Shown here in pieces: positions 1 to 23,519 of a DNA stretch of 64,000 nucleotides (position 1 is its first letter; each line of letters begins with the position of its first letter). The DNA lies in assembly GCA_026874595.1 (NCBI GenBank), contig CM049310.1:42659558-42723557 (forward strand). The letters are read 5' to 3'. Below the pieces are notes generated by a model. It did not search any database, was not told where the DNA came from, and saw nothing but the letters and a program-made list of their open reading frames with translations. The position numbers and the translations under genes were made by a program. This stretch comes from Sipunculus nudus. Lineage: Eukaryota; Annelida; Sipuncula; Golfingiida; Sipunculidae.

Positions 1-2
1 GG

Positions 3-1256
3 ATGACCACGTACAGTTCTGAAGGGACCGTAAAAAATCATTCCGGTGCAACATTCTCTAGAAGTGCTCAACGTAGTCAAGGGCTCATGATCCAACGGAC
101 CAACAACAACAGGGGAGGTATACAGAATCTCCTTCTCTCGGAACTCCAACGGCATGTGTGTGCCCACATTTCCGACCCGGTTGCGCAGCACCACTTGACC
201 CGGAACGTTCCCGGTATTGTCGTCGTGAATGTTAATTTTTGCGTGGACCACCACGGACCAACGAACGTGTCACGCATTCCAGGGAAAATGGTCAGGTACA
301 CACGCGCGGTGAAAGCAAGGAAGTTTCCAGGTGTGGCACTGTCTGTCCTCGTCCCAATTAAGTGCACCACACGTCTACGTATCAAAAATATTCACGTTAC
401 CCCTGTGGGGGGCAACACGGGCAAGACGCCGGAATGCGTGGCGGTCGAGGACGCCGACGTTGATGAAAACAGGTCAGTCACCGCGTCTTTGCCGTGCAAT
501 CTTCACAAATGCTGTTCCGCCACGTACCCGAAAGCCAGCAACCCACACACCCTGCACGCACTTGTGGAGTCCCATCGGCGTGTCATTGAAAGCGTAGGAG
601 AGCTCGACGTTGCAATGCAGAGGGCCATGCAAAACACGGAACGCGCCAATGAGTGCCCATTAAATTTTCTGGCGTCACGTCTGATTTCGTGCGTCTACAA
701 CTTGAGAGACACGCGGGGCGGCGCAGAAAAAAGCACTGCTTCGGACGGAGATTCCGATCAGTCCGAAGACTGCCCGTTGGTATATGCGTGGGGTTCAGTG
801 GCCGTCGGGAGCGGGCCCCATATGCCGCAGCTGGCGCGGACACTCCGCAAACGGTTTTCGCCTGCAGCGTGTAAACCATTGCAGTTGTGCTCGGCCGATT
901 ACGACCCTTGCGCACAACGAGCACGCCACGGACCAACTGACCGTTTTGGCAGGGTAGGGCGGAAGACCGATTCTGTTCTCAGCGGGCAAAGCACAGCTTA
1001 CAGGTCCCGCAATGGCGATTTCGTGTCCGCTTTGTACGACTGCACAGCCGACCCGTCAGTTGGGTCCTTGTCACCTGTAAATGGCGTTTACGCTTATTTC
1101 ACATGGCTTCAACATAAACGCCACGCCTTGTGGGCTGTTGACGGGGACGTGAACGAAAGGCAGCAGCAGGTGCCGTGGGACACATTAGAAATGACGTGTC
1201 AGGCGTGGACCTCCACATCAGGACTCACCCCCGCTGTCGAACCTTACAAACTTTAA
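3..1256 (+). CDS. Uncharacterised viral protein, possibly 5'-truncated by the window edge
   Basis: A frame of 417 codons opens with an ATG only two bases into the window, so the true start may lie upstream and the protein may be a fragment. I do not recognise a family. There is no signal peptide or membrane segment. The protein is rich in Cys and His (for example CNLHKCC near residue 168) and has an acidic Ser/Asp stretch near residues 250-262 (DGDSDQSED). The C-terminal half is basic and polar. Base composition and lack of introns match the following viral-type genes. It converges with the 872-aa gene across a 231-bp gap. A structural or regulatory viral protein is possible, but nothing seen decides it. 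Confidence 0.7.
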   Translation: MTTYSSEGTVKNHSGATFSRSAQRSQGLMIQRTNNNRGGIQNLLLSELQRHVCAHISDPVAQHHLTRNVPGIVVVNVNFCVDHHGPTNVSRIPGKMVRYTRAVKARKFPGVALSVLVPIKCTTRLRIKNIHVTPVGGNTGKTPECVAVEDADVDENRSVTASLPCNLHKCCSATYPKASNPHTLHALVESHRRVIESVGELDVAMQRAMQNTERANECPLNFLASRLISCVYNLRDTRGGAEKSTASDGDSDQSEDCPLVYAWGSVAVGSGPHMPQLARTLRKRFSPAACKPLQLCSADYDPCAQRARHGPTDRFGRVGRKTDSVLSGQSTAYRSRNGDFVSALYDCTADPSVGSLSPVNGVYAYFTWLQHKRHALWAVDGDVNERQQQVPWDTLEMTCQAWTSTSGLTPAVEPYKL

Positions 1257-1487
1257 ATAGCAAAATATAAACTAATGTTTCAACACACACACATATCTAT
1301 GTATGTATAACAAACAATAGATCATGGACATACAACTGTTTTATTGTTGATATATAATATGAAGCAACAGTGTTCCCAAAATATCAGTTTGACATATTAT
1401 ACTTAAGCATTATGCAATATCTCTTGTGAATCTATTCAAATGTGTATAAGTATGCGTGTGTATGGATGCCATTCTCGAATACGACAT
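1257..1487. other. Convergent intergenic region with minus-strand poly(A) signal
   Basis: This is an AT-rich gap between the tail-to-tail genes ending at 1256 (+) and 1488 (-). On the minus strand AATAAA is read at 1345-1340, about 145 bases past the stop codon of the 872-aa gene, and is its likely cleavage signal. I see no canonical AATAAA for the plus-strand gene and no other gene. Confidence 0.5.
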
Positions 1488-4106
1488 TCACATAAAAACA
1501 TTGGGTTCTTCCTTATGCGTAAAACCTTGTGTTATGAATTGCCATACGTAATCATGACCTTTGGGGGTCGAGTACAGATTGTTTGCGAAGGGTTTGAACA
1601 TGTACATGGTGGTGTATATGGCGTTCTTTAGTATGTACCATTTTGTGTGTGCTGCTGTGCCCTCTTGTATGTTTGATGCCGTACAGATTCCCAAAGCGTT
1701 TATATTTTTTTCAACCTCCTGAAATGCTATGTTGCGCAGTAACAGAACAGAGGACCGTATTTTTGCAAGTTTCTGTGACTTTTTATTGTGTCTTTTACCA
1801 TCAAGGCGGAGAGTTGCAGTAGGGTCCAAACATATATCTGCGGAGAGTTTATCAATATCTGTCAGGTTGTATACAAGCTGGCGAAGAACTAACAAAGCGT
1901 AAGGTGCCCCGTCGTATTGCCTGTCCATCCATTCGTGCATCTCCATTCCGGGGATGTATAGTGTGTCCCGTGATTCAGCAGCACTCTCTGTTTCTCTACG
2001 CTTGGCCCATTCTTCCTCGTACGCTTTGACTGCACCCGCCAGGTCTTGCCTGTCGTTCAGCAGACACAAAAGCCATAAACCGGGGAAAGCGCTTGATGTG
2101 GTGACTCGGCGATCCATACCTTTCAAATACATCAAAATAGATGAAGTAAACGCTTCCCATGTTTGTTTAGTCCGGTGCCATCCTATAGCGTACAGCAGCA
2201 GCGTGACGTTAATCCCTAGCACTGCTGCTCGCCGAACGCTACTGTACTTGTACAACGCGTAGAAGACGCCCCTGCAGTCATCTGATGCGTTCTCGTCTGT
2301 CAGAACGGCCTGAATGGGCCTGTCCTCTAACCGGTAGCTCGGGTTCCCTTCCTCGTCCCTGGGCGTGGCACCAAAGACCATAGTGTACAGCATGTCTGCC
2401 GTGTGGCATGAGGACGTCATTAGCTTTTCCGCACTGCCGTACGATGGCTGTGGCCACACGACGTAAGGTGTCCAGTCTGCCTTTTGGTTCAAGGGGTCCG
2501 CGTGCGTCATATGACTTTCACTTGCTTCCCTCTGGGACTCGGACAGGTCATTTCGTATGCCCTCCCAGCATGAATCGTTACCTGTCGTGGCAGCAACAGA
2601 ACCCGATACGGAAGCGGCCGTTGGAAAACCTCCTAAAGGAGGGAGGGCCTCCCATTCCAGTCCAGTTTGCAACAGTGGTCTGTAACCTAAATCCTTCTTT
2701 CCGCATTTGAACCCCGTCAGGAACATGTCGTAGTAACACTCGAGAGCCACTGGCGTGCTCGCCACGACATCCGCCCACCTGCGGGACATCACATATTGTA
2801 TCTGACGGTTATTTTGCGATATCTCATACCAAGCGTACAGGTACCAAAGGCCGGCGTAGAGGTCCGAGAAGTGCCGGTTCGCATCACAGTCCAGTTGGTG
2901 AGTCAACGTTCCGACATCTGCCACGGCGTTGTTGACAGCGAGCACGAATGCTGGTGCGACGGTAACGAAAGAACCCTTACTGTCCTGTGGCACCCTCCAG
3001 GCCCCGCTGCTTCCCTGGCGGCCTGGCGGGACCAGGTTCACGTTAGCCAAGGACGGGTCGGTTGGTCCCATTTCATGCCGGAGCAATGTATCTTGCAAAC
3101 TGGACAAACGTGACCTGGTGAAATCCTTTATTTTTTTCCCCTTTGACGTAATCATATGGAAAAGTAAATGTGTCTCGGGACCGTACACGGGCAATGCTGG
3201 GCGATCACACTGTTGCGTGGAAGCCGCGAGTACTCTTTTCGCATGCTCGGTCGGAAGTTGGAATGCAGGTAAACGTTGGCGGCACGTAAGCAACGCGCGT
3301 TTTGACATGTTCATTGTCTGCAAAGCCCTTTTAGTACGTGTCTGGCCATCTACCGTTTTTACCATCATGGGTACCAGCTGCTCCACGAGCGGGGGAACAG
3401 AAGCGTCTGCTTTGTTTCCATGACTCATCAGTTCATCAGGGCAGGGTCGTGATGTTGGTTGACGCAATGGGCTACGAGACCTGCGCTGGTCCTCTTCCTC
3501 TGGATGGACCATTTCTGGAGGCCGTCGACTGAATGCGTCGTTCAGTGTTGTCAAATGTCCCATGAGTGCATCCGTGAGTTCAGCCGCACGGGCGGTGTCG
3601 CCTGTGGTCCGTCGTAAAAAGTCTTCGGCTAACCCCTTAACCCTTTCCCCGGCGATGCACAGCGCGTCCTGGGTCCCCGGTTCCATTAACAGTATGAGGT
3701 CCAACAACTCTGTCCGGTATCGGTCGTGGACGTCTGTCACAGCTTCATCGTGCAGCCGTTTCGCTTTCAGCCGTAAAAGCGGTAGGTACCCGTCCCTCAT
3801 GGTGCGCATTTTGAGTCTTGCAGTCCTCAGACTCTCCCTGGTACGAGCGGAATGAACCAGTAAAACATGGTACAAGGGAGGCAAACGGTTATTGGCGGTA
3901 GACTGTGACATGACGGCGTTGTCAGGTGTCCACGCAGAAATGTTAGCACCAGAACACGTCCCGCTGTCCAGTATTTCAAGCCTGCGGTGGAACTCTTTGT
4001 CCGACTCCAGTGTGCCATTTTCGAACAAATGATCACTTCTTCTTCGTCCGCTAGTAGTATCATGTGGATCTCCACGCCATTGAGCCATGGCATGAGAAGA
4101 CCGCAT
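1488..4106 (-). CDS. Uncharacterised large viral protein, 872 aa
   Basis: This is an intact 872-codon frame with an ATG start at 4106; a second Met six codons later is an alternative. I do not recognise the family. The first 250 residues are strongly charged, with Arg/Lys-rich helical stretches around residues 80-160 and a polar RRSRSPLRQ segment near 210. The C-terminal two thirds are globular-looking with many aromatic residues. There is no signal peptide or clear transmembrane helix, so a nuclear, tegument-like or capsid-associated protein is plausible. It lies 173 bp downstream of the UL24-like nuclease on the same strand and may share its transcript. Confidence 0.8.
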   Translation of the reverse strand: MRSSHAMAQWRGDPHDTTSGRRRSDHLFENGTLESDKEFHRRLEILDSGTCSGANISAWTPDNAVMSQSTANNRLPPLYHVLLVHSARTRESLRTARLKMRTMRDGYLPLLRLKAKRLHDEAVTDVHDRYRTELLDLILLMEPGTQDALCIAGERVKGLAEDFLRRTTGDTARAAELTDALMGHLTTLNDAFSRRPPEMVHPEEEDQRRSRSPLRQPTSRPCPDELMSHGNKADASVPPLVEQLVPMMVKTVDGQTRTKRALQTMNMSKRALLTCRQRLPAFQLPTEHAKRVLAASTQQCDRPALPVYGPETHLLFHMITSKGKKIKDFTRSRLSSLQDTLLRHEMGPTDPSLANVNLVPPGRQGSSGAWRVPQDSKGSFVTVAPAFVLAVNNAVADVGTLTHQLDCDANRHFSDLYAGLWYLYAWYEISQNNRQIQYVMSRRWADVVASTPVALECYYDMFLTGFKCGKKDLGYRPLLQTGLEWEALPPLGGFPTAASVSGSVAATTGNDSCWEGIRNDLSESQREASESHMTHADPLNQKADWTPYVVWPQPSYGSAEKLMTSSCHTADMLYTMVFGATPRDEEGNPSYRLEDRPIQAVLTDENASDDCRGVFYALYKYSSVRRAAVLGINVTLLLYAIGWHRTKQTWEAFTSSILMYLKGMDRRVTTSSAFPGLWLLCLLNDRQDLAGAVKAYEEEWAKRRETESAAESRDTLYIPGMEMHEWMDRQYDGAPYALLVLRQLVYNLTDIDKLSADICLDPTATLRLDGKRHNKKSQKLAKIRSSVLLLRNIAFQEVEKNINALGICTASNIQEGTAAHTKWYILKNAIYTTMYMFKPFANNLYSTPKGHDYVWQFITQGFTHKEEPNVFM

Positions 4107-4279
4107 TCATAAAGTGATATGTGTCAGGAACTTCCAACTCTAAGCCAATAAAGCCACCGCATGCCATTGACCATGCGAGACAAGCGGGCGCCTACATGTT
4201 CTATCAGTCTAACCTGCTGCCCCATATGCATCCTGATCTTTGAGGTACCCGTGCAGTTGAATATTATTAGCACTCTACG

Positions 4280-5683
4280 CTACTGTGTGTACTTCTCAAT
4301 CGGGCAGACGGTTGTCACCAGTTCATACATCGCTTTTGTGTAGCGGTCGGCGTGTTCGAGCACAGACAGGTCAGTTGGTGCGCGGAACGTACATATGGGC
4401 CCTGCGGGGGCGCCGCCTTCACACTTGCTTCGTCCTTCGCCAATAGGAAGAACATATCCGCATTCTTGAGAGCAGAACACCATTTCTGAAAAGGCCACGT
4501 TCGAGAATTGGCCCCCGTCTCCACAGCCTGTTTGAGGTTGAAATGTTCGCTCGGATGCGCTGTCCCTTTTATCGTGTGTTGCATCTGCTTTTTCCTTAAC
4601 AGTGAAACGTCTCACGCGACAGCACGTCTTTCCAACCCACACGTATGAACTGAAACGAACGCGAAGTGCGTGTATGCGGTGCTGTTGCTGTGCACGCTTT
4701 CTCCAGTGCGCTGCGGATGATCGATGCAAGAACTCGCGCAGGCGCCAGGTAGTGTCGCAAACCTGGTAAAACGCCGATTGACACGCGAACGTAATTCGTT
4801 CTTTTGAAAATACAGGCGACACTATACTGGAGTACTTGAACGTCCTGGCGACTTGTTGATATTGCGAGCGGATGAGATCCTGTTTATGGACACTTGCGTT
4901 GAAGCCGATACTTTTCACTTCGACCACACACACCCATGCGCAACGGCCTTTGGGGTGTGCGGCCAGCAGTACCACATCCGGCCGTCTCGTCCCTTTCAGC
5001 TGTAGGCGCTTCTTCGCATCCATCCGTTTTACTTTCCGACGTGGTGGCCACCTCACAGAGTTGCATGTCGGCAAAGGTCTGTTGCTTTCTGTTGAGGCAG
5101 TACCGACGTTTGATATTGGGATGTGCGGTCCGACGGGTGTTTCACATACAACGGTAACTTTAACATCTTTGGCCCATTGTAATAAAACAGGCGTAGGTAT
5201 GTCTTCGCCTTTTTTAAACGGATAACATTCCAACATGGTCAGCGCCCTGAGTATAAACCCCCTGGCGTTTGATTCGGCGTGTGCGGCCTGCACGGAACTC
5301 GATGCTTGCCAAAATAGGGCATTTCCGAATGCGATTTCTACCACGTCTTTCAAATTGGTAACTTTATAGAGACGATTTTGTAGTCGCGTGTGGAACCGTT
5401 CACCAGCCGTTGTCGAACGGGCGTGGCAGCGGTCGAGGTTTGCCAGGACTGGGGCTATCACGCCCTTGTTGTACGATTCGAACGTCTGGAACACCTTGGG
5501 TGACACATGTCCCGTATGTGCGGTCCAGGATGAAACTGCTCTCCGAAGTAAAGGGTTTTTAGCCGCTGCAGATTTCCATGCAGCAAACTCGCGACATCTC
5601 TGCACTGTGTACAACTTTGTGAGTTCTGACACCAGTTCTTGCTTGTGGAGACGATACCTCTCATGGTGGACACGTTTTTCCAT
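4280..5683 (-). CDS. UL24-like PD-(D/E)xK nuclease-fold protein
   Basis: The 467-aa protein has a recognisable PD-(D/E)xK core: RRPD ends at Asp236, followed after about 18 residues by VVEVKS with Glu255 and Lys257, then a helix with Gln residues near 274-278 (QYQQV). The RRPD...(V/I)xE(L/V)K spacing is the signature I associate with the herpesvirus UL24 family, whose members are nuclear or nucleolar and carry this putative endonuclease fold. Here the protein is longer than typical UL24 proteins, with extra N-terminal helical sequence (1-200) and a Cys-containing C-terminal tail. The start is the ATG at 5683. A TATATATT element lies about 90-100 bp upstream at 5774-5783. The nuclease fold is well supported; orthology to UL24 rather than another PD-(D/E)xK protein is inference. 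Confidence 0.65.
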   Translation of the reverse strand: MEKRVHHERYRLHKQELVSELTKLYTVQRCREFAAWKSAAAKNPLLRRAVSSWTAHTGHVSPKVFQTFESYNKGVIAPVLANLDRCHARSTTAGERFHTRLQNRLYKVTNLKDVVEIAFGNALFWQASSSVQAAHAESNARGFILRALTMLECYPFKKGEDIPTPVLLQWAKDVKVTVVCETPVGPHIPISNVGTASTESNRPLPTCNSVRWPPRRKVKRMDAKKRLQLKGTRRPDVVLLAAHPKGRCAWVCVVEVKSIGFNASVHKQDLIRSQYQQVARTFKYSSIVSPVFSKERITFACQSAFYQVCDTTWRLREFLHRSSAAHWRKRAQQQHRIHALRVRFSSYVWVGKTCCRVRRFTVKEKADATHDKRDSASERTFQPQTGCGDGGQFSNVAFSEMVFCSQECGYVLPIGEGRSKCEGGAPAGPICTFRAPTDLSVLEHADRYTKAMYELVTTVCPIEKYTQ

Positions 5684-5922
5684 GCCGGTAAAGAGGCCAC
5701 GCGGTGATCACTGTCAGTTCACTGCCCCCGCATATACCAAATGACGCACGCGGTTTACCCCGTGTGACGAGTGTAATATATATGACTCGTAGCTATCACG
5801 TGATCACCATTACCAGTTTCGGTATATGCAAATAGGTTCATGGCATATTACGCTGCGTATATGTACGGAAAATGGTTGATTAAACAAATGTATTGGCCAC
5901 GGCCAACAGTTCCATGTAAGCT
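5684..5922. promoter_or_regulatory. Intergenic promoter region of the UL24-like gene
   Basis: On the minus strand TATATATT is read at 5783-5774, at a suitable distance from the ATG at 5683. A palindromic E-box, TCACGTGA, lies just upstream at 5796-5803. The same octamer recurs near other promoters of this segment (7503, 22840, 31565). No gene is seen here. Confidence 0.45.
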
Positions 5923-6354
5923 TTACCCTCCATCTCCCGAAATTTCATCATCTTCTTGGTTACTGGAGGTCTTGTCGTTCTCGTTTGTTCGTACATGATT
6001 CCTGTTTGTGTTGACACCAACAGTACCGGTGTGTTCCGCCCACATCACAGGAGCGGGTTTTGTCCCCCAATACCACAGTTTGCACACAGGATAACCTCTA
6101 ACTGGTGTTTGGTCCACCTCCCTGACCTTCCAAACGCACAAGACTCGAGGGGCTCCACAGCACATGTCCGACGCCGTGCAATTTTCCCCTATACGTTTAC
6201 AATCCTGCACGGGATCTACTTTATGGCGGTCAGTGAGAAGGTGTTTGGCTAAGGCAAACGGAAACGTACCCCTTAACTTGACTCCGGGTAGCACAAACAA
6301 CATCAAAGAAACCACGGTCAGATAGGTCAACGCCATGTACGGGCGGGTACCCAT
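5923..6354 (-). CDS. Secreted knottin-like cysteine-rich protein
   Basis: The 143-aa product starts at the ATG at 6354; the frame is open further upstream but has no ATG there. Residues 1-26 form a classical signal peptide, with the hydrophobic core MALTYLTVVSLMLFVLPG. The rest contains exactly six cysteines at 52, 59, 65, 66, 73 and 91, spaced C-x6-C-x5-CC-x6-C-x17-C. This C-C-CC-C-C order is the inhibitor cystine knot pattern seen in O-type conotoxins, spider peptides, some antimicrobial peptides and the baculovirus ctl genes. One sequon (NCT, Asn58) lies inside the knot. The tail is polar and ends in an acidic stretch (EDDEISGD). The target is unknown: ion channel, receptor or host enzyme are all possible. 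It sits next to the CARD-like gene on the same strand. Confidence 0.7.
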   Translation of the reverse strand: MGTRPYMALTYLTVVSLMLFVLPGVKLRGTFPFALAKHLLTDRHKVDPVQDCKRIGENCTASDMCCGAPRVLCVWKVREVDQTPVRGYPVCKLWYWGTKPAPVMWAEHTGTVGVNTNRNHVRTNENDKTSSNQEDDEISGDGG

Positions 6355-6611
6355 TGCAATCTGAAATCGTCCTCTATCGTGCAAACCAATGGAATTGCGC
6401 TTATGCACGAGACGTGAAATGTTTGCTGGCGACTTTAACCATGGTCTGCGTTTCACAAATACTTTAACATTCGAGGCTAGAGATATACACGATGGGACTG
6501 CACTGTACAGGACGATAAATGGACACCATATGCCGGGAGCAGACGTCGGTGTGTACACTAGTGCAGAGATGTCGTATTTATTTTCCTCACAAGGAATCTG
6601 TCCTCGTCAGA

Positions 6612-7463
6612 TTAGTCATTAAGGTCGAACCTGTATTCCTCAAATGATGGAATGGTCACGACATAATATTGCTTTGCCTGATTCTGTACGGCAGTCATGA
6701 GCATATCGGCTCTCTCATATTCACCCGATACATACAAGGCATACCACACATCAGACCACATGTGCGGACGCTGGTGCAGCCAATCGAAAAAACGGATACC
6801 GATAAAGCAGGAGGACACCCCTGCGGCGATATAAGAGAGTTCCTGATCAGACATGATGTCCATCTCGTAGAGTGTATTTAACAGCCCGTTGCTTTTAAGA
6901 TCCAATCCATCCAATAGGTCACCTGAAATATCCCTCAACGTTTGTTTCGTGTAGTACACGTATCTACATTCTGAAGTGTATGCACATGTAGGTTTAGATA
7001 AAAGAACTGGAACCGTCGTGCCTGCTTTGATGTTCTTAGCAATAGACCGTTGTTTTTCGATCCATGCGTGTATGCCTTCTACTGTATGTATATCTGGCCG
7101 TGTTTTGGCAACGACCTCTCCTGTAAACGCAGCTGCATTATATCTATCCCGCACGTACCGCATCCATACATAAGGAGGTATTTCCTCTGGGTACAGAGTG
7201 AACGTGCAGTATATGCCATCACTAGGGTCAGGTTCGGTCGCGTCCAATGTCGGCAGTGTGTGTATATCTTCCAACCGCAACCCGGTATCTAAGCAATCCG
7301 ATCCGGGCGTGTGCCCCTCCGTGCGACATTTGTAACACGGTAACGGCTTGCGACTCCCCATGTGCGCACGGTTTATCACTTCATGTACATCATATGCACT
7401 TACATTTATGATATATATACCGACACCTGTGGCGCTAGGTATACAATGATACCTTACGTACAT
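6612..7463 (-). CDS. Zinc-knuckle plus CARD-like protein
   Basis: The 283-aa protein starts at the ATG at 7463; the frame extends upstream only through a non-ATG codon. A CCHC-type zinc knuckle is at residues 43-57 (Cys43, Cys46, His51, Cys57; C-x2-C-x4-H-x5-C, one residue longer than the canonical last spacer). Residues about 178-263 fit a CARD: a predicted helical bundle with LLNTLYEMDIMSDQEL, then IRFFDWLHQR and then ALYVSGEYERADML, matching the usual pattern of hydrophobic helices, an acidic turn and a terminal (L/A)-A-x-(L/M)-L helix. CARDs join RIG-I-like receptors, adaptors, caspases and IAPs, so a viral copy could act as a decoy. The middle part is unrecognised. The CARD call rests on pattern, not on an alignment. 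Confidence 0.6.
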   Translation of the reverse strand: MYVRYHCIPSATGVGIYIINVSAYDVHEVINRAHMGSRKPLPCYKCRTEGHTPGSDCLDTGLRLEDIHTLPTLDATEPDPSDGIYCTFTLYPEEIPPYVWMRYVRDRYNAAAFTGEVVAKTRPDIHTVEGIHAWIEKQRSIAKNIKAGTTVPVLLSKPTCAYTSECRYVYYTKQTLRDISGDLLDGLDLKSNGLLNTLYEMDIMSDQELSYIAAGVSSCFIGIRFFDWLHQRPHMWSDVWYALYVSGEYERADMLMTAVQNQAKQYYVVTIPSFEEYRFDLND

Positions 7464-7564
7464 GTTCCCTGTTTTATTTGCCGTAGCGGCACCAGCCACT
7501 CGTCACGTGACTATGTGTGACACTATCGTGCATGATATATGAGACAAAATACCAGTCATACAAA
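7464..7564. promoter_or_regulatory. Bidirectional promoter between the CARD-like and multi-EGF genes
   Basis: Only about 100 bp separate the two divergent start codons (7463 minus, 7565 plus). The gap holds a TCACGTGA palindrome at 7503-7510 and a TATAT-type element near 7534-7538 that could serve the plus-strand gene. Short shared promoters of this kind are usual in compact viral genomes. Confidence 0.4.
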
Positions 7565-10500
7565 ATGGGCACTTTTTACAGACAAGTATTATACCTGCCT
7601 CTTCTGGCATTGATCGCGCGCCAGATACAGGCCAATCGTAAGGCCGCACCCTCGTGGCGTTGGTTAGGAGCGCCGACGGAAAGTGAAATGGCCGGCCCTT
7701 TTAAATCGTGTAAGGTAACTGTCAACAACAAGCGTGTTACATGCGACGGCAGTAAAGAGACATACACGTACCAGAAAGCAAGACGTTGCTGTGAGTGTGC
7801 CGGTTTGGAACTTCCGCGTACAAAGGCATCGCAGGTAGCGTGGATGATGGAACTGGCTCCCACGGTGACCAGTGCACATTTCCGCATGGCAATCGAGGAC
7901 AGAAAAACCGAGGCATGCTCCGTTTTCCGCCGAACTAAGGGTGCTTCCAAAATGAAGGGATGCCATAAAGAGAAGGCCGGTTTTTTGTGTTGGCCAAAGA
8001 CTGGTACCCGTTTTTCAGATCCGGATGATAACATGGAACTCGTAGGGCCTTGGTCAAAGGAGCAAACATTTTGCAAAGACACAGCAAAGAAGAATTGCAG
8101 TGGCTTGACAGAAGTCACTAACAAGGAGGCAAAAAGTTGCTGCCAGTGCGCAGGAGGGCGTTTGCCTGTCATATCAGACCAAGGTTATGACTTCAACAGC
8201 GACTCTGTAAGCAAACTGTTGCGACAAGTGAATATTTCAGAAACGTGGACAATGTTCTCCGAAAACAATCAGGTCATACAAACTCCGGTATGTCACCTCT
8301 TTCGTTATGATAACGATATGAAAGCAGGCCATCACAAACACAAGGATCAGAAGGGAAACGTCGATTGCGACCAGAAACATCGGTACATATGTGTCCGTCC
8401 AGAGTGCTCTGAGGGATACTGGGGACGCAAATGCAAACGGAATTGCTCAACAGGATGTTACAGACGTGTGTGTATGGGATACACGGGAACGTGTTCACAC
8501 GGGTGCAAGGCCGGCCTCAGAGGAAAGCTTTGTAACACAACCTGCAACAGTGGACGCTGGGGTAAAAACTGCGCACATAAATGTTCATCCGGGTGCATGA
8601 GGGAAAGGGGTGCCAAGCCTGTGTGCTACCCCACAAACGGAACTTGCTCTTGTAAAGTGGGTTACGCAGGCTCGAGATGTAACAAGTTGTGCACGAACGG
8701 AACGTTCGGCCTCGGTTGCAACCGCACGTGTTCTGCAGGTTGTCTGCGTGAACCGGACGAACAGACGAAAAACGGAACGATGATTAAAGGGACAGCAGTT
8801 TGTCGTTCAACAGATGGGGCATGCGATTGCCTGCCCGGGTTCAGAGGCAAAAGATGTGCGAACGCATGCTTGTCAGGTCAGTGGGGTCTTCATTGTGCCT
8901 TCAACTGTTCGGAAGGTTGTTCCCGCCGGAAATGCAATGCAGTAAACGGCGGATGTTCATGCATGCCAGGCTTTAAGGGGGCCCGCTGTAACGTGACGTG
9001 CCCTCCAGGGACATTGGATGATATATGTACCAGGACATGTTCTAACAATTGTGTACCAGTAAAAGGTATCCGTTTATGCGACAAGCACAGCGGGTCTTGC
9101 AGTTGCTGTCCAGGTTACTACGGCAAGGATTGCAGCAAGGAGTGTGCCAGGGACAAGTATGGATCTGATTGTACCAAGACGTGTCCAGTAAACTGCATGC
9201 ACGCCCCTGCCTCTCATATATGGATGACCGGGGCCAGTGATCGGAACTCGTCTTCAAGATACATGTGGCGTGTGTGTGCAAAAGAGACAGGAGCGTGTAG
9301 CTGCAAAGCTGGTTACAAAGGTCAGACATGTTCGGAAGCATGCGGCAAGCAAGAATGGGGCGAAAACTGTCACAGTACATGTCCGGTCAATTGCAACGGG
9401 ACCGCCTCGAATTCAAATGTTAAATGCGACCGGTTTAACGGAACGTGCTTATGCAAGGACGGTTATACGGGACACAAATGCGCGGATGTATGCTCTACAG
9501 GCACGTGGGGTACGAAATGTTCCCGAAATTGCTCTAGCCGGTGCATAACCACAGGTAACAGTCATAAGCCGACCTGCAATCATATAAACGGGACGTGCAC
9601 TTGCCAGCCGGGTTACACGGGTAAACACTGTGAGGCACTCTGTGCAAACGGCACGTACGGCCCATCCTGCTCGAAAACGTGCCCAAGCCGTTGTGTGCGT
9701 GCACGGAATACGAATTCTGTTCGGACAACAACGTATCAGTTATGCGACCACATTTCCGGCAGCTGCTTGTGCCAGGCCGGTTACAAAGGGCAGTACTGCA
9801 ATGAAACGTGCTCAGCAGACAAATGGGGTTCAGAATGTGCCTTTTCGTGTACGCCTGAATGCAATGGATCCGTTGTTTACAATGGTATACCTGTCAGGAA
9901 ATGCAACATGGTGAACGGTTCGTGCACGTGCCAGGCCGGGTACGTGGGCGAGCGCTGCACTCAACGTTGCGACGGTGGACTTTGGGGGGAGGGTTGTGTC
10001 AGTGTATGCGGTGCCGGATGCTGGAACCGCTCCAGCTGCCACCACGAAGACGGACATTGTGCACCGTGCACAGAAGGGTACACGGGGCCGAGGTGTGAGA
10101 ACCTGTGCCCGTCCGGTGTTTGGGGAAATAACTGCAGTAGCACCTGTTCGCTGTTTTGTGCGAATTCCAAATGCAGCCCATTCGACGGAAAATGTTACCA
10201 ATGTAAAGCTGGCAAGGACGGCGACTTCTGCAACGCGGATTGCCCGACCGGTGTGTGGGGGACTAACTGCAGTAACACCTGTTCGTTTACTTGTGCAGAT
10301 GGCAAATGCAACCCAGCCGATGGGAAATGCTACCAATGTATAGCTGGCAAAGAAGGCGCCTACTGCAACGCGGATTGCCCGACCGGTCATTGGGGGAATA
10401 ACTGCAGTAGAACCTGTCCGCCATCTTGTGCAAAAAGCACATGCAGCCCATTCGACGGGAAATGTTACCGATGTAAAGCTGGCAGAGAAGGCGTCTTCTG

Positions 10501-10789
10501 CGACTCGGATTGCGGCGAAGGAACGTACGGTCACAACTGCATGATGTTGTGCCCCGTCTGTCCAAACGGCGTATGGTTTAAATGTGATCCCGTCACTGGT
10601 GTGTGTCAGACAGGCGGCACAAACCTCGAGGACACTGGTCGGTGGAGGGAACACTTTCGTGCCTTCTGTTGGAAACCTGACAAAACGGGAAGGCAATGCC
10701 GGGACATTAATACAAGCAAGCCTGCCTGGCGTGATCAACACATAGCGGTTGTCTTGTTAAGCCTCCAGGTTCTGTTCGAGTATGTGTAG
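7565..10789 (+). CDS. Secreted or GPI-anchored multi-EGF (MEGF/SREC-like) protein with two C-type-lectin-like modules
   Basis: From the ATG at 7565 the product is 1074 aa. A signal peptide (residues 1-24, core VLYLPLLALIA) is followed by two related modules of roughly 120 residues each. Both contain a CC(E/Q)CAG.LP core and end in a C-rich (F/Y)(L/I)C motif, suggesting degenerate C-type-lectin-like domains. Then come about 15 EGF modules of the MEGF10/SREC type, recognised by repeated C..G.(W/Y/F)G..C cores, with many N-glycosylation sequons. Near 10132, 10267 and 10402 three modules repeat with a 135-bp period and look recently duplicated. The C-terminus is a short hydrophobic stretch (HIAVVLLSLQVLF) that resembles a GPI signal more than a full membrane helix. 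Metazoan relatives are phagocytic or scavenger receptors, so host capture and a decoy or attachment role are plausible. Confidence 0.8.
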   Translation: MGTFYRQVLYLPLLALIARQIQANRKAAPSWRWLGAPTESEMAGPFKSCKVTVNNKRVTCDGSKETYTYQKARRCCECAGLELPRTKASQVAWMMELAPTVTSAHFRMAIEDRKTEACSVFRRTKGASKMKGCHKEKAGFLCWPKTGTRFSDPDDNMELVGPWSKEQTFCKDTAKKNCSGLTEVTNKEAKSCCQCAGGRLPVISDQGYDFNSDSVSKLLRQVNISETWTMFSENNQVIQTPVCHLFRYDNDMKAGHHKHKDQKGNVDCDQKHRYICVRPECSEGYWGRKCKRNCSTGCYRRVCMGYTGTCSHGCKAGLRGKLCNTTCNSGRWGKNCAHKCSSGCMRERGAKPVCYPTNGTCSCKVGYAGSRCNKLCTNGTFGLGCNRTCSAGCLREPDEQTKNGTMIKGTAVCRSTDGACDCLPGFRGKRCANACLSGQWGLHCAFNCSEGCSRRKCNAVNGGCSCMPGFKGARCNVTCPPGTLDDICTRTCSNNCVPVKGIRLCDKHSGSCSCCPGYYGKDCSKECARDKYGSDCTKTCPVNCMHAPASHIWMTGASDRNSSSRYMWRVCAKETGACSCKAGYKGQTCSEACGKQEWGENCHSTCPVNCNGTASNSNVKCDRFNGTCLCKDGYTGHKCADVCSTGTWGTKCSRNCSSRCITTGNSHKPTCNHINGTCTCQPGYTGKHCEALCANGTYGPSCSKTCPSRCVRARNTNSVRTTTYQLCDHISGSCLCQAGYKGQYCNETCSADKWGSECAFSCTPECNGSVVYNGIPVRKCNMVNGSCTCQAGYVGERCTQRCDGGLWGEGCVSVCGAGCWNRSSCHHEDGHCAPCTEGYTGPRCENLCPSGVWGNNCSSTCSLFCANSKCSPFDGKCYQCKAGKDGDFCNADCPTGVWGTNCSNTCSFTCADGKCNPADGKCYQCIAGKEGAYCNADCPTGHWGNNCSRTCPPSCAKSTCSPFDGKCYRCKAGREGVFCDSDCGEGTYGHNCMMLCPVCPNGVWFKCDPVTGVCQTGGTNLEDTGRWREHFRAFCWKPDKTGRQCRDINTSKPAWRDQHIAVVLLSLQVLFEYV

Positions 10790-10965
10790 TGATGTCATAT
10801 CCTGACAACATATCATGACCACACTGCCCGATAGCGCGTGTGGACTGCATGCTAGGATATGCATAAGTAAATGTCCAAGCTGTTAACCAGATATAGTTTT
10901 ATTTTGACATGAAATAAACAACAGATATATATTTTATTGAAACATGTGTGTTCTTTGCTGATGTC
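10790..10965. terminator. Shared 3' region with poly(A) signals on both strands
   Basis: The multi-EGF gene (+) and the 1083-aa gene (-) converge here. AATAAA for the plus strand is at 10913-10918. On the minus strand AATAAA is read at 10938-10933 and 10903-10898. The two transcripts therefore probably overlap at their 3' ends. Confidence 0.55.
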
Positions 10966-13900
10966 TCATATTTGCACAGACGACCTGTCTATTATGCCGG
11001 AACGGACACCTGCTTCCGTGAAGGGGTCCATATGCACATCTTTCCTTTCACAGCTTTCTCCATCTCGCTGTTCTCGTTTACACGGGACGCTCGCACTCTC
11101 CTTTTCCGCAGCCACTTCTAAATGATTCGAAAACTGGCGCAGCGTCATACCTGCGACAGACAGTTGGAATGCCGCGTGCACCACTGCGAACTGCGTTTCG
11201 TCCAGCGCGTTCACGGTGCGCCCTCTTTCTGCGGCAGGGTCACCGTCTAACGGTAACGGGTCAACGTCAAATTCAGGCGTCACGTTCGGAAACACCATTT
11301 CGAGGTATGGTTTGACGAGGGCTCTGTTGGTTTCCTTGCGTGGTATGTACCGCACGGCGTTGTTTGTGTAGGTCGACACTTGGTTGAAATTGAGCATGTT
11401 CATGGTAACTGAAGCCCATTGTTCACGCTCCATGTCTGCGTACGCCTTCACGTCCGGGACAGCGGTGCTCAGCCGGTGGCCCAACACTTCTCCAAACACA
11501 GGGTCCATCTGGTTTGTGACGTCAACTACTGTCGGCCCCGCAGCGGACCGGCTTTTGGGCGGCCCGATGCCACCCGATTCTACGGGCCGGTTGGGCCCGT
11601 ACACGTCTGACACTCCTCGCCACAGGCCGTGCGCGTCGTCAGCTATTTCCTCCTCAAGTTCCTCTGCTGTCCGCTGTTCCGTTTTACACGAATCGACGGC
11701 TCTTTTCACGTCCCGTTGAAGGTTTTTCAGGTGTTTCAAAAGTGCGCGACTCGGTGGAGCCCTTTCGCCGTCCCACATTGGTTCACCGGCCATTTCTTCT
11801 GTGGGTTCGAGGCGTTCCTCGATAAATTTCTCGTAAAGGTGAACGGCTTCACCCAAGCGACGCTGCTCCTCTTGGTATTCGTTCAGTTGGGCGGTCAGCT
11901 GTACGTACCGTTGGGCGTGTATGGCGGCTTGGTGTTTATGCAGGTCCAGCGCGTGCCCTGACTGTTCCACGAGATCGATCAGGTACTGCATGACCCTTTC
12001 GGCTTCCGCGTTCTTGCGTTCTGCCCTTCTCAGGGCTTCCTTTTCAGCCGACGGCTTACTGAACCAGGACAATGCTTCGGCCACACCCCTCTGCATGTCC
12101 AGCTCGGCCGCGGTTCTTTCCAATTCGCGCACGTTGTACCTGACGCCTGACGTGGCGTCGAGGTCGCTGACTCCAGGGCGTGACAAACTGCCATCGTACA
12201 AGCGGCCGGAGGGCAGTCCGTCGCCAGCGTGATCCGTACTACCACAGACACGCTGTGTGTTACGTTGAGGGGCACGGCTAAACTTCGGGCCCGCACCCGG
12301 AAATGTGGACGATGAAGACAGAGGTGCTCTCGCGTCGTCAAGCGTACCGCCTGCGGTGATCCGTTTCTGCAGATCACGCAGGTTAGCGTACATGCTACCC
12401 CAGTCACCCGCGACTCCGCTCACGATACACGGCACCAGTTTTTTCAAAGCTCCGCGTGTGATAGCGCTATCGGATTCCGCGGCTGTGCCCAACAGTTTCA
12501 TCATATCGTCTGTGGTTTTTTCTTTCGCTTTACATGACATCAACTGCCTGTGAAGTTTAGCTGCGGCCAAAGTGGCCGAATTGACCTTTTCCTCTGCAGC
12601 GTTCAGTGCCCTGCGACAGACCTCTCTTTCGCTAGACGGGTCGTCATCCTGTTCGGCAGGTTTCTTAGGCATGCTCTTTTGCCCTAAAAGCACGCACGGT
12701 TTAGAGTTGAATATGTGCGAGTTTTCTGCTAGGCTTTGTAACAAACCACGTGCCCTGCTGTACATCAGAACTTGCCCACAGGCTGTGGCCATCGGATCGC
12801 ACCGGAAATGTTTGTGCGGGTATACCACCCCAAACTTGGAGCCCGGCGGGAAAAATGATTGGTCCATCACAGACACCCCGAAGCCGGACTGGGGTCCCAG
12901 GTATACCAAAACGCATTCTTCCGGTGAAAGGACTCGGACATGCCCTTGTCTGCAGTCGCAGAGCCTCATGGAGCAGGTACGCAAGGCTGACAAAAGAACG
13001 CTCTCTGAGGCGGAGGTCTCGATTGTGTCACGTTTCCATCCAGAGCACACGCAAGGGCTGAGGTTACCTGATCCAGGGGGTAAACGCACGTAAGGCACTG
13101 CGCCCAAGGAGAGGGTCCATGTACAGTACATCTCGTAGTTTCCCTGGAGTTTTACACGCTGCACCACCCGTTGTACGAGTTCTGCAGAAAGCTCTCTGAT
13201 GTGGTTCTCGAGATAACCTTGGAAATTTTTTACGGACACGCGAATTTGGGCTGCACACTTTGTGATATCGAGGGGATCGCCCACGGCCATATCAACATGG
13301 TGCGCCCATTCCTTCTTGAACTTACCGTAAAGCGCGGTGGTGACGTCAGAGGACAAAGACCGACACAGGGAAGATGCGACGTATTGAAAAACGAGCATAT
13401 CTGTAGGCAGTGACAAGACGGCTCCTGTGCAAGCGGAGGACCCCCCGGTGAAAGTACGCAAGAGTTCCCTGCTGAGGTCCGTCGGATGAACCAACACAGG
13501 ACGTGAACCGGCAGCAGACAAAGGCGCATTCGACAGGCAAGACACCACGGCGTCCGTCACCTTTTCGGCCGGCGGAGGCCCGTACGCCGTGTCACCCACC
13601 GTCGTATCGCATGACGGTACAGCTATGCAACGCACTGAACGGAGTGCACGTGCGCGTTTCAGTTCACGGTGCAGCAGGTTTCTCTGTCTTGCCAGTTCCA
13701 CGTACGTGTCTTTCATCCTTTCCGCGTCCCGCCTCGTGCGGTCCAGTTGTTCGCACAGATTGTGAAATTCCCGACGTGTTTCGCGGTCCCGGACGGTTTG
13801 TATTGCTAGGACGTCTGCGGAAACGCGTTCTTTGTCCAGCAGTTCAAACCGTTCTTTTAACTCGTGGAGCATGTCGGGATGTCCCTCTGGCCAAGGTGTT

Positions 13901-14217
13901 GGCACGCCAAGGGATACCCGTTGGGAATCCATGTTGGGTACATCTGTGAAATGGGCGTACGCCTTTTTAGGGCCGTAGCCGCCTTCGTAGGGAAACGCTT
14001 TGGACCGGACCTGGTCGTAAACTCTTTCATCCTGCCGTAGTGGCGGGAAACTGCCCGGACGTGACGGGTCCTCGTGTCTGTGCACTTGCTCTTTCAGGCT
14101 CCTGTAAGACTGCCTGCACCCGTTCCTGGAGAACGACGCTCGATCCGCCGGGTATGATCTGTGTTTCCGTCGTGATTCATACCTGAAACGCGGTGTCCAC
14201 ATGCGTGTAGTGTGCAT
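10966..14217 (-). CDS. Large coiled-coil protein, 1083 aa, probable virion or scaffold component
   Basis: This is an intact frame from the ATG at 14217. The N-terminus is strongly basic (RRKHRSYPADR). At least three stretches have heptad-like Leu spacing and dense Glu/Arg/Lys: one beginning near residue 115 (LHELKERFELLDKER), one near 540-590 (SEREVCRRALNAAEEK) and a long one around 745-900 that includes QYLIDLVEQ and TAEELEEEI. The region between about 380 and 500 is more globular. There is no signal peptide or membrane helix. I do not recognise the family; long coiled-coil proteins of this size in large DNA viruses are often tegument or capsid-associated, but that is inference. It is the longest gene on this strand. 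Confidence 0.75.
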   Translation of the reverse strand: MHTTRMWTPRFRYESRRKHRSYPADRASFSRNGCRQSYRSLKEQVHRHEDPSRPGSFPPLRQDERVYDQVRSKAFPYEGGYGPKKAYAHFTDVPNMDSQRVSLGVPTPWPEGHPDMLHELKERFELLDKERVSADVLAIQTVRDRETRREFHNLCEQLDRTRRDAERMKDTYVELARQRNLLHRELKRARALRSVRCIAVPSCDTTVGDTAYGPPPAEKVTDAVVSCLSNAPLSAAGSRPVLVHPTDLSRELLRTFTGGSSACTGAVLSLPTDMLVFQYVASSLCRSLSSDVTTALYGKFKKEWAHHVDMAVGDPLDITKCAAQIRVSVKNFQGYLENHIRELSAELVQRVVQRVKLQGNYEMYCTWTLSLGAVPYVRLPPGSGNLSPCVCSGWKRDTIETSASESVLLSALRTCSMRLCDCRQGHVRVLSPEECVLVYLGPQSGFGVSVMDQSFFPPGSKFGVVYPHKHFRCDPMATACGQVLMYSRARGLLQSLAENSHIFNSKPCVLLGQKSMPKKPAEQDDDPSSEREVCRRALNAAEEKVNSATLAAAKLHRQLMSCKAKEKTTDDMMKLLGTAAESDSAITRGALKKLVPCIVSGVAGDWGSMYANLRDLQKRITAGGTLDDARAPLSSSSTFPGAGPKFSRAPQRNTQRVCGSTDHAGDGLPSGRLYDGSLSRPGVSDLDATSGVRYNVRELERTAAELDMQRGVAEALSWFSKPSAEKEALRRAERKNAEAERVMQYLIDLVEQSGHALDLHKHQAAIHAQRYVQLTAQLNEYQEEQRRLGEAVHLYEKFIEERLEPTEEMAGEPMWDGERAPPSRALLKHLKNLQRDVKRAVDSCKTEQRTAEELEEEIADDAHGLWRGVSDVYGPNRPVESGGIGPPKSRSAAGPTVVDVTNQMDPVFGEVLGHRLSTAVPDVKAYADMEREQWASVTMNMLNFNQVSTYTNNAVRYIPRKETNRALVKPYLEMVFPNVTPEFDVDPLPLDGDPAAERGRTVNALDETQFAVVHAAFQLSVAGMTLRQFSNHLEVAAEKESASVPCKREQRDGESCERKDVHMDPFTEAGVRSGIIDRSSVQI

Positions 14218-14766
14218 TTTGTTTTATCATGCCATGGACCGTTTGATGACCGATCAGTTGACGTAAGTCACAGTAACTGTGACAGTGACTTTACCTACCC
14301 CAATACCTGATTCAACCGCTCGGACCAGAAACACAAATACGTACACCAAATAACGACCAATCTGACCCTTCGTCTGTTGCGCTCGTACAACCCGATCGGA
14401 TATAATATGCGGGGTGTGAAAGGAGGGATGGGCATGATGTGATACCATTGTTTACATTATAAAACAAAGCACCATCAGTATAGCTCAGGGGACTTATAGT
14501 CAGCTGAGCTGCAACCGACCCACACCTTAGCTACCACACACGTCATCCATACCATCATACATTGGAACGTCATTTGACAAGTGCACAGAACGAAGGCTGG
14601 CATAAATCACGTTCATTAATGCTGTCTAACATGAAACACGAAACAATAAAAAAAAACAACACCATACACGATACATCACATTTATAACAAGTAACAACGT
14701 ATAAACAAATCAAATTCATGCACGTTCATGTCAAATAAACCAAAATATATCTGTCCATATCACGTT
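14218..14766. other. Intergenic region with dyad, forkhead-type site and host-type hairpin
   Basis: The 549-bp gap upstream of the 1083-aa gene and downstream of the first ankyrin gene has no supported gene. It holds a 17-bp dyad at 14267-14283 (GTCACAGT-A-ACTGTGAC), a TTGTTTAC motif at 14448-14455, and a 32-bp imperfect hairpin at 14479-14510 that matches a repeat end in the host half (52316-52347). The right half is AT-rich. Confidence 0.45.
14479..14510. repeat. 32-bp AGCTCAG hairpin shared with a host repeat
   Basis: The segment begins TATAGCTCAG and ends CAGCTGAGCT. Its arms are self-complementary around a GACTTATAGTC centre. It agrees with 52316-52347 at 29 of 32 positions. The latter copy terminates a GGACGGACG-type repeat in the AT-rich half. 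Presence of the hairpin inside the viral-type segment supports long residence in, or exchange with, host DNA. Confidence 0.6.
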
Positions 14767-15561
14767 TCACTCGATCATCCGTAAGAACATACACATCTCT
14801 GAATTGTCTGTAGCGTATGCCAGTGAACGTGCTGTTTCCCTATCGTAGGATTCGAGCGATATGTCAGCTCCGGCTTCTAATAACATATACTTCACCATGT
14901 CCACATTGCCACGCAGAACAGCTTCATGTAACGGTGTCAGGCCTCGTTTGCCTTCTTTACAGTTGGGATCCGCGTGCAGCGCGAATAAAAGATAGTTCAG
15001 CATGTCCCTGGCATCTGCTTCTGCTGCTATGTGCATGCAAGTGCGACCGTCCGCGTTCATAACACCCGTGAGATTCCTGTAGAAATCCGGCTTGTCCATC
15101 ATCACAAAGCCGGCCCAGCATGTCAGTGATTTCAAGCATTCCGAGCACTTGCGCTGGCAAGCCAAGTGCAGTGGGGTGTTCGCGTGTCTGTCCCTTTTCG
15201 TAACGTCCGCTCCGCGCATCACTAGATGCCGGATGAGTTGGTGCATGCAAAGTCTCACAGCCAGCTCGAGGTAGGTTTCTCCTTGTATGTTTACTATGTC
15301 GAGGACTCCTGGCCCGTCCATTCTGTCGAGCACCGATATCGCCCAGCCTTCCATCCCGGCTAATATGCAATTGTGCAGAAACGTCTCACCGGCACTGTCA
15401 CGGGCGAGAAAGTGACACGGGGTGGACGATACGTCCCGTGGGGCACCAGAAACCGTGACTTCTTTGGCGGTGCTGTTCTCGCGTATGTCTTTGACGGTGC
15501 TGTTTTCGCTTATGTGAAGTCTACGCATCCCAGCCTCGACTGACTCCGTCGAACAAAACAT
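14767..15561 (-). CDS. I-kappa-B-like ankyrin protein A
   Basis: The product is 264 aa from the ATG at 15561; codons further upstream in frame lack an ATG. A minus-strand TATATATATATG at 15643-15632 sits about 70 bp upstream. Ankyrin repeats span roughly residues 56-254. The third repeat has the RDxxxNTPLHLAC...CxxxLT form, followed by an insertion before a DGRTCMHIAA repeat, which is the arrangement of I-kappa-B proteins. The N-terminal region contains a small internal repeat (SENSTVKDI / RENSTAKEV) and no DSGxxS phosphodegron. The likely role is binding a host Rel/NF-kappa-B factor. It is the last of three tandem paralogues on this strand. Confidence 0.75.
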   Translation of the reverse strand: MFCSTESVEAGMRRLHISENSTVKDIRENSTAKEVTVSGAPRDVSSTPCHFLARDSAGETFLHNCILAGMEGWAISVLDRMDGPGVLDIVNIQGETYLELAVRLCMHQLIRHLVMRGADVTKRDRHANTPLHLACQRKCSECLKSLTCWAGFVMMDKPDFYRNLTGVMNADGRTCMHIAAEADARDMLNYLLFALHADPNCKEGKRGLTPLHEAVLRGNVDMVKYMLLEAGADISLESYDRETARSLAYATDNSEMCMFLRMIE

Positions 15562-15948
15562 GTCTCTGTCTCTAAACGTGTAAACGAACAGTGAACTGCA
15601 ACAGTATGTGATCAAATACTACCAGAACAGTCATATATATATACGCTAAAAGGACATCTATTTTTAACCCGTGGAATATCCGAAAGTCACATTTGTGAGG
15701 TAATCTCTAATTTTGGTAACGTCGGATTTCCCCACAAATCACAGCATGATAATGCATCATCCGACATGTGGGATTTTTGTTCACGGTCACACACAGCCAC
15801 GTCATTGGTAGTGTTTGTTTAGGGTTGAACAACGGTGTATCCGGAAAGCGAATCCCCCTCCTCCCCCCAGTTCATCAGCCAGTGCTGTCATTGCGGGATA
15901 ATTAGTAGGCACAGTATACAATCATAGTGTATACACTTTCGTATTAAG
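15562..15948. promoter_or_regulatory. Promoter region of ankyrin gene A
   Basis: A run of alternating TA at 15632-15643 reads as a TATA box on the minus strand. The remainder up to ankyrin gene B is non-coding, with a C-rich run near 15859-15872. No further gene is seen. Confidence 0.45.
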
Positions 15949-17088: not shown

Positions 17089-17144
17089 GGTACGGCGATA
17101 AAGACGTTCATCCAAAATGTAGACGGTGACACTGTTCGGGCACA

Positions 17145-17150
17145 TTTATA
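17145..17150 (-). promoter_or_regulatory. TATA box of ankyrin gene B
   Basis: TATAAA on the minus strand lies 57-62 bp upstream of the ATG at 17088. It decides the start choice because it overlaps the upstream in-frame ATG. Confidence 0.6.
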
Positions 17151-17557
17151 CACAATGCTTCCTAGTGACAACCAATAGAAAGTCTCTGATTGGGGGAAAA
17201 TTCTCCTGACTCATACCCTCCTGACTTGTTTACGCAAGCATATGATTTACATGGGGAAAACCGACGATGACTCACTGATTGTGTGAATTCCAAAACGTAA
17301 ACCGACGTAGTACACTTCCGGGAAAATCTACCTGTTAGCGGTTATGTTACCACGACGTCGTACCCACGTTCTGGCAGGTGTGCAGTAAACAACTGACGCT
17401 TGGAAATACCCGGTATGACGCTTAAGTAAAAGTAAAAACCCAATGACGTAAATGTTTAAATGCTCCACTACTAAAAACACTAATCAGGCGACGTATATTC
17501 TGTGTGCGGAGGAAACAGGATTACATCCTGACAGTTCGCTTAATAAACACATACGCC
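17151..17557. other. Intergenic region with forkhead-type and AP-1-like motifs
   Basis: No gene is seen. TTGTTTAC is at 17226-17233 and GTAAACAA at 17385-17392. TGACTCA-type AP-1 sites flank the first of these (near 17208 and 17270). Similar combinations occur upstream of other genes of the viral half. Confidence 0.35.
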
Positions 17558-18694: not shown

Positions 18695-19017
18695 TGCTGA
18701 AACACGCCTGTATTACAGTGTGACCGTGTCGATTGCACTGTGGGTTTTATTAGTATTCGTCGGCTGACGACATGTGGCCCGTCCGTGTTTCAGTGCAAAG
18801 TCTGGTCAAGACGGGGCGTAGCTGTACACGTGCAACGCAAATACATGCGACATTGACTCCGCCCACGGCATGTGACGTCAAACGCCAGTCACCCGCTTGC
18901 TTATAAAGCTAGACTCATTTCGTTCAGTGCGGTCCAGACAGGAGGAGGCGTCGTGATTGACGACACTCACAACCGCTCGGTTGTCTTTATATCATTATAC
19001 AGCAAAGTCGGTGTGTC
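18695..19017. promoter_or_regulatory. Divergent promoter region of ankyrin gene C and the myristoylated-protein gene
   Basis: For the plus strand TATAAA is at 18902-18907, giving a leader of roughly 85 nt before the ATG at 19018. For the minus strand only a weak AT-rich element near 18745-18752 is seen. There is no gene in between. Confidence 0.55.
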
Positions 19018-20863: not shown

Positions 20864-20989
20864 ATATGTATGCACGGATGAAGGCACACTGCACACGAAG
20901 TGATAACCTTGACAGTCTCACTCTGTATTGACGTCTGAGCTCACTCCAACCACTACATATATTATATATGCACGTACGATACGCTTACG

Positions 20990-21541: not shown

Positions 21542-21594
21542 GGTGACGGGTCGAAATGCATGCGAGTCTGAGGGGTTAGTTCTTTGTTTGTACA

Positions 21595-21602
21595 CTTTTA
21601 TA
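21595..21602 (-). promoter_or_regulatory. TATA box of the cysteine-rich gene
   Basis: TATAAAAG is read on the minus strand 54-61 bp upstream of the ATG at 21541. It argues for that start and against the ATG at 21670. Confidence 0.55.
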
Positions 21603-23514: not shown

Positions 23515-23519
23515 CGTTA

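Follow-up and report, generated by a model that had tools for sequence, protein, structure and literature searches.

A putative CARD-like protein with a zinc-knuckle-like motif, encoded in many copies by an integrated herpesvirus-type element of Sipunculus nudus

Results and Discussion

The window analyzed here, a stretch of 64,000 nucleotides (nt) of Sipunculus nudus (positions 42,659,558 to 42,723,557 of contig CM049310.1, which is denoted C5 and comprises 93 Mb of a 1.43-Gb genome), contains on its minus strand a gene of an integrated element, which is assigned to the Herpesvirales by its terminase sequence. The gene is under purifying selection, most clearly in the part for the C-terminal domain, and this domain quite probably has the CARD (death) fold, as judged from a structural model and from profile scores. 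The protein is most likely a viral CARD decoy or adaptor. The preferred reading, to which a probability of about 0.5 is given, is that of a selected accessory gene of a multi-copy herpesvirus, whose product would join a host CARD assembly and block it; by analogy, the protein may jam the cell-death or antiviral alarm complexes of the host.

The Gene and Its Copies

Residues are numbered here from an ATG at 7463, the first in a minus-strand open frame of 283 amino acids (7463..6612), which the list of open reading frames (ORFs) opens at a GTG at 7499. The first-pass annotation had taken 7463..6612 as the gene; the frame is real, but its beginning is not kept between copies. Upstream of an ATG at 7361, which corresponds to residue 35 and is the first in-frame ATG past a TA tract, other copies differ from the window in the length of that tract by -2, +2, +4, +8, +15 or +19 nt, mostly non-multiples of three (upstream alignment of 24 rows, i.e., 23 loci and the window, 20 of them distinct; locus L007 is the window itself). 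Residues 1-34 are therefore out of frame between copies whose remaining gene is kept. Because of these frame shifts a start at 7463 was ruled out and the start was moved to ATG 7361, most likely the true one from the sequences compared, so that the revised protein begins at residue 35. A spliced exon may exist further upstream. The features of the gene, all on the minus strand, are as follows:

6612..7361, minus strand: gene for the protein with knuckle-like motif and CARD-like domain, revised start; 249 amino acids, ATG at 7361, stop codon at 6612-6614
7293..7337, minus strand: zinc-knuckle-like motif CX2CX4HX5C, residues 43-57
6969..7283, minus strand: middle region, residues 61-165; predicted local distance difference test (pLDDT) below 40 in every 10-residue block, no fold or family found
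6672..6947, minus strand: CARD-like domain, residues 173-264, six predicted helices
7362..7463, minus strand: upstream stretch (former residues 1-34), probably 5' untranslated or promoter; frame shifts by the TA tract, no in-frame ATG from the tract to 7361
7411..7419, minus strand: TATATATAT tract, candidate TATA box by sequence only, about 50 nt before ATG 7361
6577..6582, minus strand: AATAAA, candidate polyadenylation signal, likewise from the letters alone, about 30 nt past the stop codon

The gene is encoded at 58 listed places in the genome, which merge to 56 copies. Forty-seven of these run without gaps from ATG to stop, and none of the 47 contains an internal stop; the remaining nine were excluded from the codon count. 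In the MAFFT alignment, deletions of 1-2 nt within the gene were present in L010, L011, L015, L016 and L019, and the stop codon was lost in L009. The gap in L018 is an alignment artefact, since this copy is intact in the MAFFT alignment, and L087 and L088 have a gap pattern like that of L018.

Selection was estimated from codon variation among the 47 rows (31 distinct), ignoring mutation bias and counting variable codons as events. There were 36 variable codons, 18 silent and 18 amino-acid changing, as against 78% changing expected without selection (binomial p = 2e-4). The signal was strongest in residues 166-272, i.e., the CARD-like part (8 silent, 4 changing; p = 8e-4), which are identical in 50 of the 56 copies; values for the other parts were 6 silent and 11 changing for residues 61-165 (p = 0.21), 2 and 2 for residues 35-60 (p = 0.21), and 2 and 1 for residues 273-283 (p = 0.07). 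Relative to an older copy, L009, differences per site over the whole gene amounted to 0.067 (silent) and 0.027 (changing); the middle region by itself showed no constraint in this comparison (pair-summed ratio 1.12). That the ORF might be a chance open frame or a decayed relic would agree with the nine copies that are not gapless, five of them with small deletions, but is very improbable in view of the 47 open copies, the excess of silent changes and the motif residues that are invariant in ten copies (see below).

Two copies, L009 (C14:42127200-42131200) and L010 (C6:2661300-2665200), are more diverged, with about 93% identity to the window over 1.2 kb; they represent an older or a sister lineage and should be useful for dating.

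The CARD-like Domain

Helices were predicted at residues 173/181-186, 193-200, 206-213, 218-231, 233/235-245 and 249-263/264. In a single-sequence AlphaFold2 model of the fragment, residues ~173-264 form a six-helix bundle with pLDDT values of 65-85 in the core, and the predicted topology is the Greek key of CARDs. A model of the full-length protein had a pLDDT of 38, which leaves the N-terminal half without a model; its helices are nearly those of the fragment model. The best structure matches in the PDB were CARDs, and a VIA-align table of 50 entries contains 48 that are CARD, death or pyrin domains or designs on the Apaf-1 CARD, as classified from their titles and from what is known of the molecules; since this table is a re-ranking of Foldseek's own picks, a family missing from it is not thereby excluded. 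Among CARD, DD, DED and PYD, the first is tentatively taken as the nearest subfamily.

A profile built from 15 host CARDs gave the domain 8.8 bits, a score reached by none of 2000 shuffles of its own sequence and by none of 132 other frames of the window (open frames of at least 80 amino acids, positions 1-33000). With a profile of host and element CARDs the score was 10.5 bits, again with none of 2000 shuffles reaching it. Leave-one-out scores of 22 accepted CARDs were between 29 and 69 bits; the domain, by these scores, is a far outlier among CARDs.

Several results weigh against a CARD. The profile of the element's own CARDs failed, with 2.1 bits, a score reached by 9 of 2000 shuffles, and with 0.11% for the domain versus 5.5% for the best shuffle. 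Pfam CARD (cut-off 23.9 bits) did not match residues 160-283 at E <= 10 nor the full ORF at E <= 1, a phmmer search of the PDB yielded no CARD match to the domain, and the absolute confidence of the single-sequence model is low. In the viral structure library BFVD all rows had E-values of at least 0.62 and were mostly unrelated. The domain could accordingly be some other small helical bundle, for which AlphaFold2 had defaulted to a CARD-like form and the profile score was coincidental. The missing sequence matches in Pfam and the PDB, the failure of the element-only profile and the low model confidence would fit such an explanation; it appears unlikely, since fragment and full-protein models agree closely on the helices, nearly all VIA-align entries belong to the death-fold group or are Apaf-1 CARD designs, and the host CARD profile sets the domain above all shuffles and all 132 frames. 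In addition, the virus carries other CARD, CARD-RING and BIR genes, which makes a CARD likelier than the sequence score alone would suggest.

The first-pass annotation had read this region as a CARD and had proposed structure prediction as a check. The latter indeed returned a six-helix death-fold bundle, at moderate confidence, and structure matches and the host profile (better than 2000 of 2000 shuffles) support the assignment, whereas Pfam, PDB phmmer and the element-only profile are silent on it. As Pfam does not recognize the domain, it is named CARD-like here and is not filed under PF00619. The CARD-like part is acidic, with a net charge of -6; this is a weak hint, since the same acidity is seen in one of the 15 host CARDs.

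Relatives of the protein were not found at E <= 1 among 496 candidates from 5.8 billion proteins, nor in the IMG/VR and phage searches, and in a search of the host genome for a donor of the domain nothing emerged beyond two weak places (E 1.7 and 4.4). The whole ORF, including the middle region, had no Pfam match above any cut-off. In a test for an IAP-type BIR-CARD-RING arrangement, no Pfam match to BIR was present in this ORF; the BIR genes of the element are separate. Matches to LysC, TetR_C_45 and hyaluronan synthase were discarded as chance.

The Zinc-knuckle-like Motif

The motif reads C43-X2-C46-X4-H51-X5-C57, and its four ligands are invariant in ten aligned copies. The canonical zinc knuckle has the spacing CX2CX4HX4C; the last gap here is 5 instead of the 4 of zf-CCHC (PF00098), and the Pfam score for this family was 14.3 bits, below the cut-off of 20.8 and covering 10 of 18 profile positions. 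A canonical knuckle of the retroviral type was thus excluded, and the CCHC knuckle of the first-pass annotation is retained as a knuckle-like motif. Of 200,000 shuffled versions of the protein, 52 contained the pattern CX2CX4HX4-6C, as did 2 of the 132 frames; when the glycine that precedes the histidine was included, the pattern was absent from both sets. The nearest PDB sequences were nucleocapsid p7 (E 3.1) and HIV-1 nucleocapsid (E 8.2). The motif may bind zinc.

The Integrated Herpesvirus

The GC content drops from ~0.49 to ~0.33 near 33 kb of the window, and a satellite with a period of ~617 nt begins near 33.5 kb; positions ~1-33,400 were therefore taken as inserted element and the remainder as host. 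The terminase domain DNA_pack_C (PF02499; cut-off 22.8 bits) was found at 60 places in the genome, the best with 106.9 bits. The terminase of the window's own copy (C5:42654019-42655089, 104.8 bits) is located ~11 kb from the gene on the opposite strand. By this terminase the element is an integrated member of the Herpesvirales, which specifies the animal DNA virus supposed initially. Features of the element in the window are:

1..33400, no strand: in-window part of the integrated herpesvirus element; right edge approximate, from GC drop, satellite and a terminase just left of the window
10966..14217, minus strand: Herpes UL6 (portal)-like gene; Pfam Herpes_UL6 E 0.0037, 16.3 bits, below the cut-off of 27
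4280..5683, minus strand: Herpes UL24-like gene; Pfam Herpes_UL24 E 0.0013, 19.1 bits, below the cut-off of 27

No relatives of the UL6-like and UL24-like proteins were present in the collections searched, and no sequences of the malacoherpesviruses OsHV-1 and HaHV-1 came up there. The weak UL24-like and UL6-like neighbors would suit another explanation, i.e., that the CARD or death fold is real, but serves as a scaffold in a virion or replication protein, with immune signaling not being the target. Purifying selection shows that the gene mattered to the element, not for what. This explanation is rather improbable, since the element devotes further genes to CARD, CARD-RING and BIR proteins. 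The missing relatives of the CARD-like protein are no argument against it, as the UL6-like protein has none in those collections either.

In 46 of the 56 copies of the gene, a place of a 230-amino-acid CARD family was located downstream on the same strand, at a median distance of 138,177 nt (range 61,942-155,036); conversely, among the matches listed, 46 of 51 places of this family accompany a copy of the gene. The window's copy of the element extends over ~170 kb from the CARD cluster described below to the right edge (C5:42523000-42693000). A comparison of window positions 32301-34500 with L054 1-4000 showed no shared stretch above 12 nt which could represent terminal repeats; the left edge is beyond the compared stretch, and homology between two element copies continues to the end of the left stretch compared.

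A ~170-kb integrated herpesvirus in ~56 dispersed copies, with this gene intact in at least 47, is perhaps more remarkable than the gene itself. Other observations in the window concern a long protein in which laminin-type EGF repeats are numerous (7517-10789, plus strand), divergent from the gene; three consecutive ankyrin-repeat genes (Pfam Ank_2; 14767-15615, 15949-17145 and 17558-18694, minus strand); a large, imperfect palindrome, centered on tandem repeats of 106 nt that are rich in GC (25864-28787), as a candidate replication origin or junction; and a related tandem gene pair with sub-cut-off fibronectin type III matches near the right edge (30268-31149 and 31717-32553, plus strand).

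Other Death-pathway Genes of the Element

When the genome was searched with Pfam CARD, at least 149 places, all above the cut-off, were found among the best 150 of 650 candidates, with at least about 40 single, non-repeated ones and others belonging to families repeated with the element; the gene described here was absent among these matches. At C5:42.523-42.532 Mb (L054 3019-7668 and L055 235-3053) six ORFs that match Pfam CARD are clustered, two of them with RING:

ORF of 274 amino acids: Pfam CARD 30.2 bits
ORF of 226 amino acids with RING finger: Pfam CARD 33.5 bits
ORF of 177 amino acids: Pfam CARD 23.2 bits, just below the cut-off of 23.9
ORF of 122 amino acids: Pfam CARD 18.2 bits, below the cut-off
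ORF of 202 amino acids: Pfam CARD 26.2 bits
ORF of 398 amino acids, CARD-CARD-RING: Pfam CARD 48.2 bits

These genes belong to the same element, ~138 kb away, with Pfam CARD scores of 18-48 bits. Their profile does not pick out the domain described here, and a close paralogue of the cluster was thus ruled out. BIR-bearing frames, at least three in the element, were found at C5:42642069, 42643523 and 42644528 among the best 150 of 532 candidates. A BIR ORF of 169 amino acids (85 bits) was observed at L054 728-2457, beside a stretch of low GC content (0.35-0.41) common to a second copy; it may represent an IAP gene captured from the host together with its introns, or else the edge of the element.

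A weaker case is a second ORF in the window:

22928..23497, minus strand: second, diverged CARD-like ORF, 189 amino acids

The combined host and element profile gave it 8.9 bits, reached by none of 2000 of its own shuffles; its scores with the host-only and element-only profiles were reached by 39 and 2 of 2000 shuffles, respectively. No CARD match was obtained for it in Pfam or the PDB. Its N-terminal half contains a PPSY motif, presumably of the PPxY type.

Proposed Function

For the preferred reading, a decoy which blocks host CARD assemblies, the following steps are envisaged. The CARD-like domain would contact a host CARD assembly of the caspase, apoptosome or RIG-I/MAVS type, and the protein, with no recognized effector domain, would block the growth or signaling of that assembly; small CARD-only proteins of viruses and cells are known to act in this way. 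Being acidic, the CARD-like part would be suited to cap a partner CARD on its basic face. Zinc would be held by the knuckle-like motif, which could serve in dimerization or else in nucleic-acid binding, and in the latter case would bring the decoy to the sites at which sensors collect. The protein would belong, together with the products of the CARD, CARD-RING and BIR genes, to a broader group of death-pathway functions of the element. A more specific version, which is put forward tentatively and is doubtful as a whole, would be a single-chain knuckle-CARD inhibitor, in which a knuckle that holds nucleic acid would deliver a CARD cap, acidic and one-sided, to the assembly sites of host RNA or DNA sensors; the inhibitor would belong to an IAP-type kit that has been taken apart into single genes (BIR, CARD, CARD-CARD-RING and knuckle-CARD), selected across dozens of chromosomal copies.

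The opposite action, in which a filament of host CARDs would be nucleated by the domain so that the infected cell stays alive, is quite improbable. BCL10 and viral E10 drive NF-kB, and E10 of equine herpesvirus 2 (EHV-2) is said by Thome et al. (1999; cited in PMC6039553) to activate NF-kB and JNK; E10 also appeared at rank 3 in BFVD, with a probability of 0.69. However, none of the BFVD E-values is below 0.62, and the acidity of the domain is a weak argument against self-assembly.

Comparison with Known Systems

E10 (vCLAP, a BCL10 relative) is likewise a herpesvirus protein with a CARD, which is N-terminal in E10; E10 is not known to have a knuckle. The structural match to the domain described here is weak (E 1.2, 18% identity), and the present virus takes the form of an integrated element. 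CARD proteins of ranaviruses or other iridoviruses include FV3 64R. Another, GIV-CARD, also stems from a DNA virus of a cold-blooded host; according to PMC4457926, it has 91 amino acids, inhibits apoptosis and lowers the activities of caspase-8 and -9, whereas the protein described here has 249 amino acids and includes, in addition, the knuckle-like motif and a middle region that is not assigned to any family.

The cellular knuckle protein ZCCHC3 is not known to have a CARD of its own. With three C2HC fingers it binds nucleic acid and contacts the CARDs of RIG-I and MDA5 (PMC10351740); the functional pairing supposed in the first-pass annotation, which had suggested that the protein senses nucleic acid and poisons CARD platforms, is present there across two cellular molecules, in contrast to the one viral chain here.

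Teratorn, a piggyBac-herpesvirus element of medaka, is integrated in multiple copies of ~180 kb, with key genes intact in most of them and with apoptosis and immune genes (PMC5601938). It resembles the present element in being an integrated multi-copy herpesvirus, but is an alloherpesvirus of fish (PMC10175614); the term "CARD" did not occur in the main text of PMC5601938. BelcheriHV-1, a malacoherpesvirus of 149,856 bp, is similarly integrated in an animal genome, that of a lancelet, but mentions of CARD in PMC12373286 refer to host GIMAP proteins and not to the virus.

Among the papers listed in searches of the open literature, neither a knuckle-CARD fusion nor a malacoherpesvirus CARD was found, in agreement with the initial statement that no protein with this pairing was known from an animal DNA virus of this kind; viral CARDs alone are known, i.e., EHV-2 E10 and the ranavirus CARD. 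The pairing of knuckle and CARD would, if true, be a new architecture.

Viral CARDs are few, and each is informative about which host platforms matter. Here the setting is a ~170-kb herpesvirus which has multiplied in an animal genome and has kept death-pathway genes intact. Two questions become testable, namely, what part CARD signaling plays in this host when DNA viruses are met, and for what reason so many CARD and BIR genes are retained by an endogenous herpesvirus.
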